Below are positions 13,521-20,722 of a DNA stretch of 64,000 bases, piece by piece. Source of the DNA: Desulfarculus baarsii DSM 2075. GTDB taxonomy: Bacteria; Desulfobacterota; Desulfarculia; Desulfarculales; Desulfarculaceae. Both the position numbers and the translations under genes were made by a program. Positions within the stretch are counted from its first letter, which is position 1, and every line of letters begins with the position of its first letter. The notes under the pieces were generated by a model. The model saw only the letters and a list, made by a program, of their open reading frames with translations, had not been told where the DNA came from and made no database searches. The stretch lies in assembly GCF_000143965.1 (NCBI RefSeq), contig NC_014365.1, positions 2,507,501 through 2,571,500 of the forward strand. The letters run 5' to 3'.

Positions 13521-14033
13521 TCACTCCATCGGCTGGCCGGAGCGCTCGCACCCTTGGGCCAGCCACTGCTTGATTTTTTCATAGGGCGGCACGGAGCCGA
13601 CCCAAACCGCCCGGCCGTTTATGACCAGGGCCGGCGCGCCGATGACGCCAAACTGGCCGATGCGCCGCAAATCATCGACATGCTCCACATCGGCGGCCAA
13701 GCCCAGCTCGGCGGCGGCGCGCATGGCTAGTTGGGTCAGGCGATGGCATTGGGCGCAGCCCAGGCCCAGAATGCGCACCTCCAAACCGGGCGCGCCGCTC
13801 TGGCCGACTTGGCCACCCAGCGCCCGCCGGAAATGCGCCGCCAAGGCCCGCTCATGGGCCTGCCTGGCCCTGGCCGGGATGTAATTGATCGGCGACAGGC
13901 GGCGCAACAGCTCCGCGCCCACTTCGGCGTCGGAGCGCGCGGCCCAGTCGTCGGCCATCTCGCTCACGGCCTGGTCCAGCCCTCGCAGGCCCACTTGGCG
14001 GCCGTCGATGCCTATCAGGCGCACGTCTTCCAT
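13521..14033 (-). CDS. Thioredoxin-like CxxC protein with extra N-terminal domain
   Basis: 170 residues. The C-terminal half is a small thioredoxin fold with active site GLGCAQCHRL (about residues 90-100) and cis-Pro loop IGAPALVINGRAVWVG. The N-terminal 75 residues (RLIGIDGRQVGLRGLDQAV, later SPINYIPARAR) form an additional helical domain that I cannot name. The gene lies 6 bp after the permease gene and 5 bp before a second thioredoxin-like gene, so all are probably one transcript under the ArsR operator. A role as redox partner for arsenic or another thiophilic metal is an inference. Confidence 0.8.
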   Translation of the reverse strand: MEDVRLIGIDGRQVGLRGLDQAVSEMADDWAARSDAEVGAELLRRLSPINYIPARARQAHERALAAHFRRALGGQVGQSGAPGLEVRILGLGCAQCHRLTQLAMRAAAELGLAADVEHVDDLRRIGQFGVIGAPALVINGRAVWVGSVPPYEKIKQWLAQGCERSGQPME

Positions 14034-14039
14034 GTTTTT

Positions 14040-15227
14040 TCAGCCTGCCAACGCGCCGTAAATCAGCCCGGCGATAGTCGACATGACCACGATGATAGAA
14101 CAGAACACGGCCGTCTTCTTCCAGCCCATGATCCCGCCGATGACCAGCATGTTGGGTAGCGACAGCGCCGGGCCGGCCAGCATCAGGGCCAAGGCCGGGC
14201 CCTGGCCCATGCCGTTGCCCAGCAGGCCCTGCAAGATGGGCACCTCGGTGAGGGTGGCGAAGTACATCAGCGCCCCGGCAAAAGAGGCGAAGAAGTTGGC
14301 CCACAGGCTGTTGCCGCCGACCATCGACTGCACCCACTCGGCCGGGATCACCCCCTGATGGCCGGGCCGGCCCAGCAAAAATCCGGCCACCAACACGCCC
14401 ATGGCCAACAGCGGCATGATCTGCTTGCCAAAACCCCAGGTCGACTGCAACCACATCCCCAACTCCCAACGGGCGAACCAGAAACGCAGCATCGCCGCCA
14501 AGCCCAGCAACAACCCACCGGCCAGCCACCACTTTACGCCATAAAGGGCCGCCCACAAGCCGCCCTCGCCAGGGGCCGGCACGGCGATGGTCGCCGAGAC
14601 CAGAATCAACACCAGCGTCAGCAAGAACAGCGCGTCCTGGGCCAGATTGCGGCCGCTGGGCGTCTCCTCTGGCAGGTGGATCTGGCCGGCGTGGCGCTGG
14701 GCCTCGTCCTTGCGGAAAATAAAGGCCATGAGTAGTCCCGTGACAATGGCGAAGACAATGGCCCCCACCGCCCGGGCCAGGCCCAATTGCCAGCCCAGGA
14801 TGCGCGCGGTAAGCACGATGGCCAGCACGTTGATGGCCGGGCCGGAATACAAAAACGCCGTGGCCGGGCCGATGCCCGCCCCGCGCGTGTAGATGCCGGC
14901 GAACAGCGGCAGCACCGTGCACGAACACACCGCCAGCACAGAGCCCGAAACCGAAGCCACCGAATAGCTCAGCAGCTTGCGGGCCTGGGGGCCGAAATAC
15001 TTCAGCACCGCCGCCTGCGAAACGAACACGGCGATGGCCCCGGCGATGAAAAAGGCCGGAACCAGGCACAGCAATACGTGCTCCCTGGCGTACTCCTGAA
15101 GCATCATGAAGGCCTCGATCAGCGCCGCGCCAACCCTTTCGCCGCCCCACGGCACGAAATAGGCCGCCAAAAAGCCAAGGATCAACCACGAAAGCTTCTT
15201 TAGCTCGTCCTTCAGCTCCTGGTCCAT
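14040..15227 (-). CDS. DUF318/ArsP-like permease
   Basis: 395 residues with about ten membrane helices. The conserved signature CSCTVLPLFAGIYTRGAG followed by FLYSGPAINVLAI marks the UPF0718/DUF318 permease family, which includes ArsP exporters of methyl- and aromatic arsenicals. A second related motif (TEVPILQGLL, LAGPALSLPNMLV) marks the internal repeat. ATG 15227 has GGGAG eight bases upstream. It lies 12 bp after an ArsR-family regulator gene and is followed by two thioredoxin-like genes, so it is probably a metal or metalloid exporter. The actual substrate is not determined by sequence. Confidence 0.87.
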   Translation of the reverse strand: MDQELKDELKKLSWLILGFLAAYFVPWGGERVGAALIEAFMMLQEYAREHVLLCLVPAFFIAGAIAVFVSQAAVLKYFGPQARKLLSYSVASVSGSVLAVCSCTVLPLFAGIYTRGAGIGPATAFLYSGPAINVLAIVLTARILGWQLGLARAVGAIVFAIVTGLLMAFIFRKDEAQRHAGQIHLPEETPSGRNLAQDALFLLTLVLILVSATIAVPAPGEGGLWAALYGVKWWLAGGLLLGLAAMLRFWFARWELGMWLQSTWGFGKQIMPLLAMGVLVAGFLLGRPGHQGVIPAEWVQSMVGGNSLWANFFASFAGALMYFATLTEVPILQGLLGNGMGQGPALALMLAGPALSLPNMLVIGGIMGWKKTAVFCSIIVVMSTIAGLIYGALAG

Positions 15228-15239
15228 CACGACCACTCC

Positions 15240-15584
15240 CTAGTTATGCGATTTTTCGCCCACACCGCCGACAATCTCGATGCGCTCCTGGACGCCGGCC
15301 CGCAGCACGTTGTCCACGCAATCGAAAAAGCCCATCACGCACGGCGCTTGCAAACGATAGTAAACCTGCGCGCCCTGGCGGCGGTCGGCCACCACACCGG
15401 CCGCGCGCAGTTGGGACAGATGCTTGCTGACCGTCGACATGTCCGCGCCCACCAGCTCGGTCAATTGCGCCACGCTCATCTCGCCCCCGGCCAGACGCTC
15501 GACCATCAGCAGCCGCGAGGGATGGGCCATGGCCTTGAGCACCCTGGCCCTGGCCTCCAGCTTGAGTCTGGTCTTTTGATCCAT
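15240..15584 (-). CDS. ArsR-family transcriptional repressor (minus-strand unit)
   Basis: 114 residues from ATG 15584 (GGAGG seven bases upstream); the longer frame reaches across the divergent promoter and is not real. A winged helix with recognition helix TELVGADMSTVSKHLSQLRA and wing DRRQGAQVYYRL. Two cysteines in APCVMGFFDCVDN near the C-terminus are six residues apart and could bind metal or sense thiols. No ELCVC motif is present in the alpha-3 helix, unlike the divergent regulator. It probably represses its own operon through the inverted repeat at 15601-15628. Confidence 0.9.
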   Translation of the reverse strand: MDQKTRLKLEARARVLKAMAHPSRLLMVERLAGGEMSVAQLTELVGADMSTVSKHLSQLRAAGVVADRRQGAQVYYRLQAPCVMGFFDCVDNVLRAGVQERIEIVGGVGEKSHN

Positions 15585-15600
15585 GACGCGTCCTCCGTTT

Positions 15601-15628
15601 ATTTGGTTATATGGCCAAATAACCAAAT
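15601..15628. promoter_or_regulatory. Inverted-repeat operator of the minus-strand ArsR unit
   Basis: Perfect 10-bp inverted repeat, ATTTGGTTAT and ATAACCAAAT, with an 8-bp spacer. It lies 16 bp upstream of the ArsR start at 15584. Size and AT-rich symmetry fit ArsR/SmtB-family sites. The sequence differs from the second operator in the same intergenic space, so each repressor probably reads its own site. Confidence 0.75.
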
Positions 15629-15668
15629 TGTCAAGCGGTCGCGCCCTTGACGCGGCGAAATTTATGTT

Positions 15669-15692
15669 GTATATGAATAATTGTTCATATAC
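15669..15692. promoter_or_regulatory. ArsR/SmtB-type operator of the plus-strand unit
   Basis: Perfect 9-bp inverted repeat, GTATATGAA and TTCATATAC, with a 6-bp spacer. This closely resembles the classical SmtB/CadC operator (ATATGAA-n6-TTCATAT). It sits 10 bp before the ATG at 15703 and next to the AGGAG ribosome site, so binding would block transcription or its start. Confidence 0.88.
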
Positions 15693-15702
15693 AGGAGCAA
15701 TC

Positions 15703-16080
15703 ATGACGGCCAAAAAACAACGCCCCGAAGACGAGCCCATCGCCTGCCAGCTCAAGGTGATTCACCTCGACCGCCTGCGCCAAGCCAAAGCCCAAGGCCC
15801 CAGCGACGACGAGTTGGAGCGCCTCAGCCTGATCTTCAAGGCCATGGGCGACCCCAACCGCCTGAAGATCCTGACGGCCCTCATGGGCGGCGAGATGTGC
15901 GTCTGCGACCTGGCCGCCCACGCCGGTCTTAGCGACTCGGCCATCAGCCACGCCCTGCGCCGCCTGCGCGATCTGGCCCTGGTCAAGCCGCGGCGCGACG
16001 GCCAGATCATATATTATTCGTTGGACGACGCCCACGTGGCCGGCCAGTTGCAACTGGGCCTGGACCATCTGCGGCACTGA
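15703..16080 (+). CDS. ArsR/SmtB-family metal-sensing repressor
   Basis: 125 residues from ATG 15703 (AGGAG upstream). It has the winged-helix core with recognition helix AAHAGLSDSAISHALRRLR. The alpha-3 metal-site motif EMCVCDLA corresponds to ELCVCDL of CadC/ArsR sensors that bind thiophilic metals through the two cysteines. An N-terminal extension with IACQLKVIHLD adds a Cys and a His that could complete the site. It is followed 14 bp later by a Cu/Zn-efflux-type permease and preceded by a textbook operator, so it probably derepresses efflux on metal binding. Confidence 0.92.
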   Translation: MTAKKQRPEDEPIACQLKVIHLDRLRQAKAQGPSDDELERLSLIFKAMGDPNRLKILTALMGGEMCVCDLAAHAGLSDSAISHALRRLRDLALVKPRRDGQIIYYSLDDAHVAGQLQLGLDHLRH

Positions 16081-16094
16081 AGGGACCATGCAGC

Positions 16095-17288
16095 ATGGAT
16101 ACGCTCATCGCCATCGGCCGCGAGGCCTGGCATATCTTGGTCGATTCGTCGGTTTACATGATTTTCGGCCTGCTGGTGGGCGGGCTGGTCAAGGTCTTCG
16201 TGCGGCCGGGTTTCGTGGCCCAGCATCTGGGCCGGGGCCGCTTTTTGTCGGTGTTCAAGGCGGCGCTGCTGGGCGTGCCGCTGCCGCTGTGCAGTTGCGG
16301 GGTGATGCCGGCGGCGGCCTCCTTGCGGCGGCAGGGGGCCAACCGGGGCGCGGTGACGTCGTTTCTGATCTCGACGCCGGAATCGGGCGTGGACTCCATC
16401 GCCATCACCTACGCCCTGATGGACCCGCTGATGACAGTGGCCCGGCCGTTGGCGGCGGTGAGCACGGCCTTCGTCGCCGGCGCGCTGGAAAACCTTAGCG
16501 AACGCGAGGGCCAGGCCCCGATCAAGCCCGACCTCAGTTGCCCGGTGGACGGCTGCTGCGACGGCGTGGATTGCCCGCCCGAGGTTCACGCCGCCCACCA
16601 CGGCTTTGGCCAGAAGGTGCTCGCCGGGGCGCGTTACGCCTTTGGCGAGTTGTGGGCCGAGTTGGCCGGGCTGTTTTTGCTGGGCGTGCTGCTGGCCGGG
16701 GTGATCACCGCGCTTTTGCCGGCGGAGCTGCTCTCCAGCTATCTGGGCGGCGGCTTGGCCAGCATGCTGATCATGCTGGCCGTGGGCATCCCGCTCTATA
16801 TCTGCGCCACGTCATCCACGCCCATCGCCGCCGCGCTGATCCTGAAGGGCGTCAGCCCCGGCGCGGCGCTGGTCTTTTTGCTGGCCGGCCCGGCCACCAA
16901 CGTGGCCTCGCTGACGATGATGACCGGCCTTTTGGGTAAAAGGGCCACGGCCATCTACCTGGCCGCCATCGCGGTGATGTCGGTGTTGTTGGGCCTGGCC
17001 CTGGACGCGGTTTACGTTTGGCTGGCCATCAACCCCCAGGCGGTGATGGGCCAGGCCTCGGAGATCATGCCCCAGTGGCTGCGTTTGGCCGGGGTGGCGG
17101 CGTTGCTTGCCCTTTCGGTCAAGCCGCTGTGGTTGAGCCTGCGCTCCAGGCTGAGCGGGGCCGGCGGCCGGACCTGCGCCGACGATTCTTGCGCCTGCCA
17201 CGATCACGGCCACGGCGCGGCCAAGGGCCTGGTGGGCATCGAGGTCCACGACCACGCCGCCGGCGGTCACGGACATAAGCACAACTAG
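16095..17288 (+). CDS. SO_0444-type Cu/Zn efflux permease
   Basis: 397 residues, about ten membrane helices. The signature LPLCSCGVMPAAASL and ISTPESGVDSIAITYALMDP mark the permease subfamily exemplified by SO_0444, described as Cu/Zn efflux. The second repeat has PLYICATSSTPIAAALI and LLAGPATNVASLTMM. A cytoplasmic loop holds CPVDGCCDGVDCPPEVHAAHH, and the C-terminus is CADDSCACHDHGHG followed by further His residues ending GHGHKHN. Both are plausible metal-collecting segments. It shares a transcript with the metal-sensing ArsR upstream and ends at a strong terminator. Confidence 0.9.
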   Translation: MDTLIAIGREAWHILVDSSVYMIFGLLVGGLVKVFVRPGFVAQHLGRGRFLSVFKAALLGVPLPLCSCGVMPAAASLRRQGANRGAVTSFLISTPESGVDSIAITYALMDPLMTVARPLAAVSTAFVAGALENLSEREGQAPIKPDLSCPVDGCCDGVDCPPEVHAAHHGFGQKVLAGARYAFGELWAELAGLFLLGVLLAGVITALLPAELLSSYLGGGLASMLIMLAVGIPLYICATSSTPIAAALILKGVSPGAALVFLLAGPATNVASLTMMTGLLGKRATAIYLAAIAVMSVLLGLALDAVYVWLAINPQAVMGQASEIMPQWLRLAGVAALLALSVKPLWLSLRSRLSGAGGRTCADDSCACHDHGHGAAKGLVGIEVHDHAAGGHGHKHN

Positions 17289-17563: not shown

Positions 17564-18133
17564 TTATTGGTTCGTCCATATCTTGTACGCTGGGACTTCG
17601 CGTCCGAGCTTTCTGTATACATATTTTTCGATAAGCCACATGACTGTTTTCGCGCAACATGCGGCGTCGTTACAGCAGGCTCGCGCATCGGCGGTAGTGA
17701 AGTGCGCAACCGCTTTATTGGCGGAACGCAACATATTCAGGCATGCACGCTCAATATCGTCTGGATTTCCGGTAGGAGGATCCGATTTCAGTTTATCAGT
17801 GGTTACAATTTGTAGCCCAAGATTTGCAATAGTAAAGTCATCTTCTCTCGGATTATACTCGGTAAACTTGCCGTTATTATGATGAATCCCAAGAAAATTC
17901 AATAGAACGCGGCAATAAAGAATGCCAGATTCTGCCAAGGCATTAGTTAATGGCCTTGCATCGGGAAAATTAACCTGAGCGCCAGATAACGACAAAGACA
18001 AGCTGGAATTGCCAAGGCTAGAATCGAGGACTGAACATGCCCAGCACAACCCGTCAAGAAGTTGCAATCTGTATGGCAAGTGCTCGTCAAGCATTTCAAT
18101 TTGCTCTGGACAAAGTGATTTTTTGTCAACCAT
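17564..18133 (-). CDS. Orphan hypothetical protein in AT-rich islet
   Basis: 189 residues from ATG 18133, which has GGAAG seven bases upstream; a longer frame starts at 18151. No family is recognised. It appears helical, with seven cysteines clustered in two zones (LDGLCWACSVL and ARACCNDAACCAK), and ends VYRKLGREVPAYKIWTN. There is no signal peptide or membrane helix. Codon use (TTA, ATA, AAT, AGA common) and base composition are far more AT-rich than any neighbour, a sign of recent transfer. The segment NKAVAHFTTADA recalls helical HEPN/Abi-like proteins only vaguely and is not evidence of that function. Confidence 0.7.
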   Translation of the reverse strand: MVDKKSLCPEQIEMLDEHLPYRLQLLDGLCWACSVLDSSLGNSSLSLSLSGAQVNFPDARPLTNALAESGILYCRVLLNFLGIHHNNGKFTEYNPREDDFTIANLGLQIVTTDKLKSDPPTGNPDDIERACLNMLRSANKAVAHFTTADARACCNDAACCAKTVMWLIEKYVYRKLGREVPAYKIWTNQ

Positions 18134-18164
18134 TGCCAAACTTCCATGCATGAATATTGTTATT

Positions 18165-18243: not shown

Positions 18244-18627
18244 TCAGTGGTCGTGGTGGTCGTGGTCATCATGGCCGTGGTGGCCGTGGCCGTGACCGCC
18301 TTGCCCGTGGCCGCCGGCGGCCACGTAGCGAGCCTCCAGGGGCCCCGGCGCGCTGGCCCGCCAGGTCTCCTCGCCCACCAGATGCACGGCCTGGCCGGCC
18401 TGCAAAACGAGCTTTTGGCCGTCATGCTCCAGCTCCAGGCTGCCGGCCACCACGCAGATGATCTCCTCGTGGCCCACGCCGGGCTTGAGCAGGCGGGGCG
18501 GCTCGCCGGGTTGGAGCACGCCATAGAGCATGTAGCAGGCGTGGGTGTCCAGATCCTTGAGCCCCAGCACCGTCTCGCCGCCTTCACGGGCCGCCCGGCC
18601 CACCAGGTCGAAAATCGTCTTGACCAT
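18244..18627 (-). CDS. Cupin protein with polyhistidine tail
   Basis: 127 residues from ATG 18627 (GGAGG nine bases upstream). Residues 1-105 form a single cupin barrel: YGVLQPGEPPRLLKPGVGHE, then GSLELEHDGQKLVLQAGQAVHLVG. The first metal motif keeps a His-Glu pair and the second a His. Residues 107-127 are a tail with ten His among 21 residues plus Asp and Gly, a clear metal-binding or metal-storage segment. It is the last gene of the radical-SAM operon, 22 bp after the DsrE gene. It may deliver or buffer a metal for the modified peptide, or bind the product; both are inference. Confidence 0.85.
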   Translation of the reverse strand: MVKTIFDLVGRAAREGGETVLGLKDLDTHACYMLYGVLQPGEPPRLLKPGVGHEEIICVVAGSLELEHDGQKLVLQAGQAVHLVGEETWRASAPGPLEARYVAAGGHGQGGHGHGHHGHDDHDHHDH

Positions 18628-18649
18628 AACTACTCGCCTCCCGCCCGCT

Positions 18650-18991
18650 TCATGGCTTGATATAGGCCCAGCCGTCGTGTTGCAGCTCGACCAGCTCCAC
18701 AATGCCGGCCGGCACGACTTCCACGCCGGCCGGCAGCTTGTCGCGGTCCACGCCAAACTTGACCAGGGCGTTGTTGCACAACGCCACCCGCACGCCCCTG
18801 GCCGCCAACTCGGCAAAGGCCTGGGCCCTGACCCCGCCGCCATCGTGGAAAAAATTGGCCGCCGGGCCGTTGAACAGCAGCACGATGCGCGCCTGGCCGA
18901 CGGCCTTCAGGTAATTGTCGATGTTGGCCAGGGCCACGTCCAGGATTTTGTCCTCGGCCATGTCCACATGAAAAACCGCCTTGTGCTTCAC
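18650..18991 (-). CDS. DsrE-family protein
   Basis: 113 residues from GTG 18991, with GGAGG six bases upstream and a GTGA overlap with the stop of the radical SAM gene, so translation is coupled. The fold marks are VFHVDMAEDKILDVALANIDNYL, RIVLLFNGPA and the RGVRVALCNNAL strand with one conserved cysteine (Cys72). The DsrE family includes sulfur-trafficking and small sulfur- or nucleotide-binding proteins. In this operon it could carry sulfur or bind the peptide product. The protein is soluble, with no signal peptide. Confidence 0.87.
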   Translation of the reverse strand: MKHKAVFHVDMAEDKILDVALANIDNYLKAVGQARIVLLFNGPAANFFHDGGGVRAQAFAELAARGVRVALCNNALVKFGVDRDKLPAGVEVVPAGIVELVELQHDGWAYIKP

Positions 18992-20178
18992 GTCGTTCCT
19001 CCAGGCAAGATCAGCGCCTCGTCGGGCGCGGGCTGGCCCATGGCCGCACACATCACCGGATCGGCGGCCATGGGGTCGCCGGCCCGGAAACGGCAGCCGC
19101 CGCCGCACTCGTCGGCCACGGGGCACTCGCGGCAGCCGGCCACATCGGCCAGGGCCAAGGGCTGGCGTCTGGCCCAGCAGGCCCACAGGCCTTCCTCGGC
19201 CCGGCCCAGGGGCGTGTCGAGATAAAAGCCGCATTGGGCCACCCGGCCGTCGGGGGCCACCGTGCACAGGTGCAGCCCGCAGGCCATGCCCTCGCCGCCG
19301 CCGTGATAGGCCCCGCCATAGGCGTGGGCCATGGCCTGGGCGGCCTGTTGGGGGGTGATGGCCAGTTGGGGGTTGTCGCCCAGGCGGCCAACAAGGCAGG
19401 GCGCGTCCACGCCCCACTCCCTGGCCCCCAACGAGCGCGCCAGTTGGCCCAGGCGCTCGAACTGATCCAGGTTGGCCGCGTGGGCCATGGTGGCCAGCGA
19501 CAGATCCAGGCCGCGCTCCCGCGTCAGGCGCGCCGCCTCCAGGGCCTTGGCGAAGGCGCCCCGGCCGCGCAGGGCCTCGTGGCCTTCTTCCAGGCCGTCG
19601 AGGCTGATCTGCACCTCGTCCACGTTGAGCGCCGCCAGCGCCTCGGAGCTCAGCAGGTGGCCGTTGGACAACAGCACCCGCCGCACGGGCAAGGCGGCCA
19701 GGCAGGCGTTGATCTGGGGCCATTGGGGATGACTGAGCGGCTCGCCGCCGCTGATCAACAGCCGCAGACCGCCCATGTCGGCGAACTCGCGGACCAGGGC
19801 GGCAAAGAGGCCGACGGGCATGTCCACGGACCTGGCCTGGCCCAGGTAGCAATGCCGACAGGCCAGATTGCAGCGCCAGGTGATTTGCAGCTCCAGATAA
19901 CGCAGGCTGGGCGTGGGGCTGGTGGGCGCGGCCAAGGGCCGGGGCCGGGGCTGGTCCAAAAGCTCCAGCAGGCCCTCGGCCAGGCAATATTCCAGAAACT
20001 CGCGCTCCAGGCCCAGTTGCGAAAGCCGGTTGCCGCCGTTACAGCGCAGCAGCGCCTCCAGGGCCTCGTCGCTGAGCTCGTAAAGTTCGTCGGCGCGGCG
20101 GTCGTAGAGGCAGGGGCTTTCCAGGCGGCGCAGGCTGGCGTGATCGGCCAAGCGCGCGAAGGGGTCGGCGATGGTCAT
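18988..20178 (-). CDS. Radical SAM/SPASM peptide-modifying enzyme
   Basis: 396 residues from ATG 20178, in ATGA overlap with the upstream stop. Residues 1-80 look like a PqqD-type peptide-recognition domain (LESPCLYDRRADELYELSDE, EFLEYCLAEGLLEL). The radical SAM core starts at 95, with cluster motif WRCNLACRHCYLG (Cys103, 107, 110) and GGEP at 144-147. The C-terminal third is a SPASM domain with cysteines near 300, 305, 316, 334, 349, 352, 358, 362 and 377 (ECPVADECGGGCRFR), enough for two auxiliary [4Fe-4S] clusters. Such enzymes typically form thioethers or other crosslinks on short peptides. A 20-residue Cys-rich peptide is encoded at the head of the same operon and is the obvious substrate. 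Confidence 0.9.
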   Translation of the reverse strand: MTIADPFARLADHASLRRLESPCLYDRRADELYELSDEALEALLRCNGGNRLSQLGLEREFLEYCLAEGLLELLDQPRPRPLAAPTSPTPSLRYLELQITWRCNLACRHCYLGQARSVDMPVGLFAALVREFADMGGLRLLISGGEPLSHPQWPQINACLAALPVRRVLLSNGHLLSSEALAALNVDEVQISLDGLEEGHEALRGRGAFAKALEAARLTRERGLDLSLATMAHAANLDQFERLGQLARSLGAREWGVDAPCLVGRLGDNPQLAITPQQAAQAMAHAYGGAYHGGGEGMACGLHLCTVAPDGRVAQCGFYLDTPLGRAEEGLWACWARRQPLALADVAGCRECPVADECGGGCRFRAGDPMAADPVMCAAMGQPAPDEALILPGGTT

Positions 20179-20504
20179 GATTGCAGGTCCAATTCGACGC
20201 CGGCGGCCAGCAGCCCGGCCACGGCCCGCAGGCCGCCGCAGGGTTGGCATTGCGCGGCGGGCACGGCCGGGTCGCGGAAATCGCAGCCGTCGATCAAAAA
20301 GGCGCAAGACCGGCACACGGCCCACAACCGGGGGTCGTCGTCGTCCAGGCCGAACAGGTCTGGCGCGCTCTCGGGCCTCAGGCCGTCAACGGCCGCGCCC
20401 AGCCCTGGCCTGGCCGCCAGCCATTCCACGCCGCCGCAGCCGGGGTCTTCTTTTTTGCCGGGCTTGTAGTATCGGCACATGCGCGGGCAGATCGCTTGTC
20501 GCAT
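20175..20504 (-). CDS. Cys-rich partner protein of the radical SAM operon
   Basis: 109 residues from ATG 20504, which has GAGG six bases upstream; a TTG 27 bases earlier is less likely. It has eight cysteines in two groups: Cys6, 10 and 23 near the N-terminus (AICPRMCRYYKPG), and Cys64, 67, 74, 86 and 89 (CRSCAFLIDGCDF, QCQPCGG). They look able to hold Fe-S or zinc sites. No family is recognised, and there is no signal peptide. It overlaps the radical SAM start by four bases (ATGA), so the two proteins are made together, perhaps as an electron carrier or docking partner. Confidence 0.8.
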   Translation of the reverse strand: MRQAICPRMCRYYKPGKKEDPGCGGVEWLAARPGLGAAVDGLRPESAPDLFGLDDDDPRLWAVCRSCAFLIDGCDFRDPAVPAAQCQPCGGLRAVAGLLAAGVELDLQS

Positions 20505-20535
20505 GGGGCAGCCTCGGGTCAACACAGCCAAATAG

Positions 20536-20563
20536 AAAGGGGAGGCATGCCAGCCTCCCCTTT
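20536..20563 (-). terminator. Hairpin attenuator between precursor peptide and enzyme genes
   Basis: Perfect 11-bp stem (20536-20546 with 20553-20563) with a 6-nt loop. On the minus strand the core is followed by an imperfect U-tract (TTTCTATTT). It separates the peptide stop at 20582 from the next start at 20504. Partial read-through here would yield much more precursor than enzyme, as is common in RiPP operons. Confidence 0.75.
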
Positions 20564-20581
20564 TTGCCGCCTTCAGTCAGG

Positions 20582-20644
20582 CTAGCAGGAGCTCTTGCAC
20601 TTGCAGAGCCCGCGCTGGGTGCGCTCGATCTTCTTGATCTTCAT
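20582..20644 (-). CDS. 20-residue Cys-rich peptide, putative radical SAM substrate
   Basis: A tiny gene with GGGAG eight bases before its ATG. Its product has a basic leader MKIKKIERTQRGL and a C-terminal core CKCKSSC (Cys14, 16 and 20; the last residue is Cys). It is the first gene after a good promoter (20694-20722) and before an attenuator hairpin and the radical SAM operon. That is the typical place of a ribosomally made, post-translationally modified peptide precursor. Short Cys-containing radical SAM targets have been described (for example SCIFF, or the very short CbpA class as I recall it). I cannot assign this one to a named family. If real, the core could become thioether-linked or metal-binding. 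Confidence 0.82.
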   Translation of the reverse strand: MKIKKIERTQRGLCKCKSSC

Positions 20645-20693
20645 GCTCGCGTCTCCCGGTTTTGGCCCCTTCGTGGGGCGGTTGATGGTTTAA

Positions 20694-20722
20694 ATTCTGC
20701 GGCCGATTATTTTGTTTGTCAA
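20694..20722 (-). promoter_or_regulatory. Sigma-70-type promoter of the peptide operon
   Basis: On the minus strand: TTGACA (20717-20722), a 17-bp spacer, then CAGAAT (20694-20699). The -35 is perfect and the -10 matches 4 of 6. It gives a leader of about 45 nt before the peptide ATG at 20644. Confidence 0.7.

Follow-up and report, generated by a model that had tools for sequence, protein, structure and literature searches.

Is the 20-residue open reading frame (ORF) that precedes a radical S-adenosylmethionine (radical SAM) enzyme gene in Desulfarculus baarsii DSM 2075 a real gene, and what does the enzyme do with its product? The question is raised by five minus-strand genes at 18244-20722 of a 64,000-nucleotide stretch of contig NC_014365.1 (positions 2,507,501 to 2,571,500), referred to here as the window; the host genome comprises 3,655,731 bases in a single contig and has Desulfarculaceae relatives. 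In order of reading, the genes encode the peptide, a Cys-rich partner, a radical SAM/SPASM enzyme, a DsrE-like protein and a cupin. The comparisons described below make it probable that the locus encodes a minimal system for the maturation of a ribosomal peptide, in which the 20-mer would serve as precursor, the enzyme would crosslink its Cys core and the product would remain in the cell.

The 20-residue peptide gene

The proposed precursor, MKIKKIERTQRGLCKCKSSC, is encoded at 20582-20644 (minus strand; ATG at 20644, stop codon ending at 20582). A Shine-Dalgarno-like GGGAG (20653-20657, minus strand) is located 9-13 nt before the ATG. No other short ORF (14-45 residues) within the window ends in CxCx3C. 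Across the phylum surveyed, 40 distinct versions of the peptide were recovered, all exactly 20 residues long, all started by ATG and nearly all preceded by a strong or good ribosome site. M1, I3, K5, C14, K15, C16 and C20 are invariant in the 40 peptides. Other positions vary within limits (V/I at 6, K/R at 8, S19 in 38 of 40), and Tyr occurs in none of the versions. Some of the invariant positions were built into the DNA search patterns used; a neighbourhood scan requiring only C.C...C near the end recovered identical conserved residues. Among 13 Desulfarculaceae variants, 236 synonymous versus 161 non-synonymous codon differences were counted. The non-synonymous changes are confined to positions 4, 6, 7, 9 and 10, with none in codons 11-20. 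The phylum-wide conservation with strong Shine-Dalgarno sites and the purely synonymous changes in codons 11-20 place the ORF beyond chance. Judged from this pattern of conservation, the 20-residue peptide is a real gene, and one that no Pfam or NCBIfam family covers.

The peptide variants track the enzyme clades. The peptide gene is duplicated in some genomes (G014, G311, and G364 with identical proteins); in G364 a methyltransferase and a cupin are encoded between the two copies. At locus L131 (230-1738), a class I methyltransferase and a cupin are seen between two peptide genes of the same protein sequence.

The original prediction, made from the letters of the window, had described the five minus-strand genes at these coordinates, the overlap of partner and enzyme genes by ATGA and of enzyme and DsrE genes by GTGA, the 20-mer with its CxCx3C end, a strong ribosome site, eight Cys in the partner and ten His within the final 21 residues of the cupin. 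All of these are present in the sequence.

Co-occurrence of peptide and enzyme

An even set of 395 genomes from one phylum was searched, with a threshold of E < 1e-60 for the enzyme. The enzyme is present in 38 of the 395 genomes (23 genera), and its tree spans 15 families. With strict pattern, neighbourhood reading and relaxed pattern combined, the peptide was found in all 38 enzyme-bearing genomes, kinship among the genomes inflating such co-occurrence counts. The strict 20-mer DNA pattern, which misses V6 as GTG and certain other codons, matched 29 genomes, every one of them an enzyme carrier; its reversed control gave 0 matches in the same sample. No peptide was detected by the relaxed pattern in 12 enzyme-less genomes, several of which share a genus or family with a positive genome. 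By genome content, the putative precursor is thus obligately coupled to the maturase, as expected of a system for a ribosomally synthesized and post-translationally modified peptide (RiPP). A first-pass match in G287, GFCKCFWRC, was rejected as chance; the genome is without the enzyme and the match without the leader motif.

The coupling does not depend on adjacency. In several lineages the peptide gene is found 3' of the enzyme gene at distances of up to about 1 kb, or elsewhere in the genome; the two are not neighbours in G069, G350, G269 and G120 (contig-limited), where many kb or a contig boundary separate them, and are likewise unlinked in G020, a genome outside the 395. Enzyme homologues without an upstream peptide, which the original prediction had named as evidence against itself, do occur in a few genomes, yet these carry the peptide downstream or elsewhere. 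As it had suggested, short ORFs were sought around enzyme homologues; the orthologues, taken from the family, the order and the phylum, led repeatedly to the same 20-residue ORF. Plasmids gave no enzyme relative at E 1e-30 and IMG/VR gave distant radical SAM fragments only; since neither search returned a close relative, there is no sign of mobile or phage origin.

The radical SAM/SPASM enzyme

The enzyme (18988-20178, minus strand; 396 residues; Pfam Radical_SAM, 59 bits) was compared in 16 diverse members. The Pfam Radical_SAM model matched all 16, and the CxxxCxxC motif for the S-adenosylmethionine cluster (C103, C107, C110) is invariant, as are GGEP and C65 in the N-terminal domain. The 7-Cys SPASM motif, tested as CX9-15GX4C-CX2CX5CX3C-C, is complete (C300-x10-G-x4-C316, C349xxC352x5C358x3C362, C377), with all seven Cys invariant in the 16; the Pfam SPASM model matches just one of them. 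No NCBIfam cut-off was reached by any member scanned (best, 105 bits versus 515).

Among enzymes of solved structure, SkfB (83 bits) and PqqE (72 bits) are nearest in sequence, the SkfB match being limited to the core, profile positions 97-252. The top structural matches of the predicted enzyme model are SkfB, over residues 12-372 with Z 19.9, and SuiB, over residues 6-387 with Z 18.7. Both are RiPP maturases with an N-terminal RiPP recognition element (RRE). The mean predicted local distance difference test score (pLDDT) of the model is 75, with 82-94 in the confidently predicted N-terminal domain (residues 1-76) and values partly below 50 in the cluster-binding regions. The model supports the assignment of the N-terminal domain as a predicted leader-binding, RRE-like domain. 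The original proposal that the short Cys peptide is a dedicated substrate of the enzyme is strongly supported by the 38 of 38 co-occurrence, the invariant 7-Cys SPASM motif and the match of the model to SkfB and SuiB.

The Cys-rich partner, the cupin and other neighbours

The partner (20175-20504, minus strand; 109 residues) contains two Cys modules with eight Cys in all and belongs to no Pfam or NCBIfam family. It is encoded directly 5' of the enzyme wherever the contig permits, or else is fused to the enzyme N-terminus; such fusions, of about 500-536 residues, occur in families f12, f56 and f61. The long form comprises two related modules, C-x3-C-x-Y-Y-K-P..E..C-G-G and C-x2-C-x-F..G-C-D-F..P-C-G-G-L, and the short form of f13 and f27 (54-65 residues) has one. 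A low-confidence partner model (pLDDT 66) gave no structural match. Judged by what recurs across genomes, the core system is the peptide, the Cys-rich partner (separate or fused) and the radical SAM enzyme.

The cupin (18244-18627, minus strand; 127 residues; Cupin_2, 23.6 bits, below cut-off) is a co-oriented neighbour of the enzyme in 10 of the 15 families. Its C-terminus keeps A-G-G/T-H followed by a His cluster, and the His-rich tail is for that reason a conserved feature that is merely longer in D. baarsii. Partner and cupin were rightly counted among the real parts in the original prediction. This is not so for the DsrE/DsrF-like protein (18650-18991, minus strand; 113 residues; Pfam DsrE, 40 bits), a species-specific addition that none of the other loci examined contains. 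The sulfur argument that was built on DsrE is weak since the protein is limited to D. baarsii.

Family f13 encodes an ATP-grasp protein (PF02655, 23.7 bits) beside the peptide gene (L062 4893-5804, also L061 and L115). This family is without the cupin, and ATP-grasp may be an alternative tailoring enzyme there. Across the neighbourhoods of the 15 families, no recurrent protease, exporter or immunity gene is conserved.

By inspection, NifU/NifS-like genes are seen near L061, L062 and L115, disulfide-oxidoreductase-type flavoproteins near L066 and L072, and rubrerythrin near L116 and L127. None of the redox- or sulfur-related neighbours recurs enough to decide the role of the system. In several Desulfarculaceae, inspection of translations at L007 and L009 (about 2.5-5 kb) indicated genes for a metal-chelate/B12-type ATP-binding cassette importer just 5' of the peptide. 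A putative heavy-metal chelation protein (DUF364/DUF4213; L064 5614-6393) is also encoded 5' of the peptide.

In the window itself, genes for two large permeases are found within 13521-17288, one of them (16095-17288) with a His-rich tail, together with ArsR-type regulators and a gene resembling those of CxxC redox proteins; the set looks like metal efflux. A similar pair of permease and ArsR genes is convergent to the cupin at L007 and L009. At 17564-18151, 3' of the cupin, is an orphan AT-richer ORF of 195 residues with no Pfam or NCBIfam match above cut-off.

Transcription signals and the RNA hairpin of the peptide leader

A sigma-70-like promoter site for the peptide gene, TTGACA-17-CAGAAT (20694-20722, minus strand; a sequence match), is sited 49 bases 5' of the ATG, and TTGAC-type elements are also found 5' of the peptide genes of many relatives. 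A terminator-like hairpin, AAAGGGGAGGC-TGGCAT-GCCTCCCCTTT (20536-20565, minus strand; -21.5 kcal/mol), separates the peptide from the partner gene. It has an 11-bp GC-rich stem followed by Ts; the T-run is short, which explains its absence from the list of a consensus terminator scan that demands 5 T in 8. Because of this hairpin, and of similar terminator-like hairpins 3' of the peptide gene in most copies elsewhere, the peptide gene is most readily regarded as a small cistron of its own, from which transcription would read through into the enzyme genes. The original picture of five genes after one promoter thus stands for the promoter-like site and is not supported for transcription as a single, evenly read unit.

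A second hairpin, GCCCC-ACGAA-GGGGC (20665-20679, minus strand), with an ANGAA pentaloop, is present in the 5' leader of the peptide gene and recurs in the leaders of relatives, near or overlapping the ribosome site. Stems of at least 4 bp closed by an ANGAA loop occur in 31 of 50 distinct peptide leaders, compared with a mean of 1.0 and a maximum of 5 in shuffled leaders; the next loop class in the 50 leaders reaches 5. All five stem pairs are changed on both sides, a covariation in which the percentage paired is not independent evidence because the rows were picked for pairing, while the loop conservation is. The ANGAA hairpin of f13, a family whose peptide usually comes after the enzyme gene, is 3' of the peptide in most copies. 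Among pattern matches in the D. baarsii genome, this locus alone has the perfect form. Rfam gave no match for the leader hairpin.

The ANGAA hairpin was seen 5' of the peptide across loci L013-L167, and some genomes show a tandem pair, the second covering the ribosome site. A sub-threshold match to the Acido-Lenti-1 RNA (32.2 bits, gathering 37, E 0.001) is found at 1299-1344 of L160, 5' of the peptide gene.

Comparison with known systems

In its predicted domain layout, in the radical SAM fold and in having a peptide partner with Cys, the system resembles SkfB and the sactipeptide maturases. It differs in having a near-invariant 20-residue substrate, a dedicated Cys-rich partner and a cupin, and no exporter. 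SkfB is a sactisynthase; SuiB installs the lysine-tryptophan crosslink of streptide. With SuiB the present enzyme has in common the arrangement of RRE (predicted here), radical SAM and SPASM domains, and the 20-mer an invariant Lys in its core, but the 20-mer is without Trp and its core is Cys-rich. In PqqA/PqqD/PqqE of pyrroloquinoline quinone (PQQ) synthesis, a very short conserved precursor, a separate small partner gene, a radical SAM/SPASM enzyme and an intracellular cofactor logic of the kind proposed here are likewise found; the 20-mer, however, is without the Glu/Tyr pair, the partner is Cys-rich and by Pfam not PqqD-like, and the PqqE equivalog score is 69 bits against a cut-off of 381.

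The mycofactocin pair MftA/MftC also combines a short precursor of conserved C-terminus with one radical SAM maturase. The C-terminal motif of mycofactocin is different from that of the 20-mer, and the mycofact_rSAM/MftC equivalog scored 61-89 bits versus 265. SCIFF and other ranthipeptides (CteB, 5wgg) resemble the system in pairing a Cys-rich peptide with a SPASM enzyme; six Cys in about 45 residues are expected there, versus 3 Cys in 20 residues here. For the GeoRSP rSAM equivalog, 60-92 bits were obtained versus 400. The prokaryotic viperin model viperin_w_prok gave 41 bits versus 180, the enzyme has a SPASM domain, and the PADLOC pVip match is confined to the radical SAM core. PQQ, mycofactocin, SCIFF, GeoRSP and viperin identities are ruled out by score or motif.

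Pfam, NCBIfam and PADLOC hold no specific family for the peptide, the partner or the enzyme subtype, generic radical SAM matches being far under the cut-offs. A relationship to the CbpA/CbpB class, raised in the original prediction, was not confirmed, a text search returning no relevant paper. A literature search for CKCKSSC and the topic, with subscription papers outside its reach, found no description, and the main text of a survey of SPASM RiPPs (PMC9062424) highlights other peptides, none with the CKCKSSC motif. The precursor, the partner and the accessory set are undescribed; the kind of system, radical-SAM peptide maturation, is already known.

Proposed mechanism and alternative explanations

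In the mechanism proposed here, the leader half of the peptide, M-x-I-x-K-[VI]-x-[KR], would be bound by the winged-helix-like N-terminal domain of the enzyme. The core, C-K-C-x-x-S-C, would then be modified, most likely by a thioether from a Cys sulfur to a neighbouring residue; C14, C16 and/or C20 would be joined to neighbours, for which K15 and S19 are candidates. In enzymes of the RRE/SPASM type, the leader binds as an additional strand of the RRE; the 5'-deoxyadenosyl radical abstracts a hydrogen from a residue of the core, and the electron or the Cys thiolate is accepted by the auxiliary clusters. The partner is probably the carrier of a metal or iron-sulfur centre in the same complex as the enzyme, as the fusions imply. 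The His-tailed cupin, common but not universal, may carry out a later step or donate metal. The product is probably used in the cell as a cofactor or a metal/thiol-handling peptide; an intracellular product is the best guess because no recurrent protease or exporter is nearby. We infer the thioether chemistry and the metal or sulfur role, as the original prediction did. The tailoring-type genes (cupin, ATP-grasp, methyltransferase) and the duplicate peptide genes in single genomes speak for peptide maturation.

Several observations weigh on the other side. The search was made within a single phylum, and just 10 sequences, all close relatives, went into the enzyme model. Pfam PqqD and RRE models match none of the 16 enzyme members scanned, so the RRE assignment is supported rather than proven. 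Conservation of the peptide far exceeds that of antimicrobial RiPP cores, and no protease recurs; an unmodified metal-binding or regulatory peptide is therefore possible. Such a peptide would be a small metal-binding or iron-sulfur-carrying subunit, or a regulator, of the enzyme-partner complex, whose true substrate would be elsewhere. The three invariant Cys of CxCx3C are potential ligands for a cluster or metal, and the very strong conservation of the peptide, the Cys-rich partner and the His-tailed cupins would suit this role. We nevertheless regard it as unlikely, given the fixed, leader-like N-terminus and the RiPP maturases with leader-binding domains that are the nearest structural relatives of the enzyme. 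A separate cistron, sometimes duplicated or unlinked, is moreover typical of an abundant substrate and not of a stoichiometric subunit.

A secreted, sactipeptide-like antimicrobial or signal is suggested by SkfB, the closest solved relative, being a sactisynthase. It is quite improbable with a core near-invariant over many families, a single copy as the rule, and neither protease nor exporter nor immunity gene conserved alongside. Still less credit is given to a five-gene sulfur-relay unit in which DsrE delivers sulfur to the peptide. DsrE proteins are sulfur carriers, and the gene is translationally coupled at this locus through GTGA, but with DsrE in one species only, it is not needed for a general mechanism. 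An upstream leader peptide attenuating the operon through its Cys or Lys codons and the hairpin, which in the window does come after the ORF and before the partner, is rejected as the least plausible reading, because downstream, distant and unlinked copies retain the sequence, including I3, K5 and C20, and changes of sense are avoided.

Maturation of the 20-mer by the enzyme remains the preferred explanation. A more specific version, which we offer tentatively and consider less likely than not, is that mature CKCxxSC is a new ribosomal cofactor of anaerobes, of the same general kind as PQQ or mycofactocin, crosslinked by the radical SAM enzyme, acting as a metal-loaded or thiol redox carrier and regulated by the ANGAA hairpin. 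The peptide gene, whose 63 bases are too few for ordinary annotation to pick up, keeps nearly every letter throughout a phylum and is tied to the enzyme in every genome sampled. Short precursors that are fixed and near-invariant are characteristic of cofactors and not of antibiotics, and the product of this gene could thus be a cofactor or metal-handling peptide, so far unrecognised, in sulfate reducers and related bacteria.

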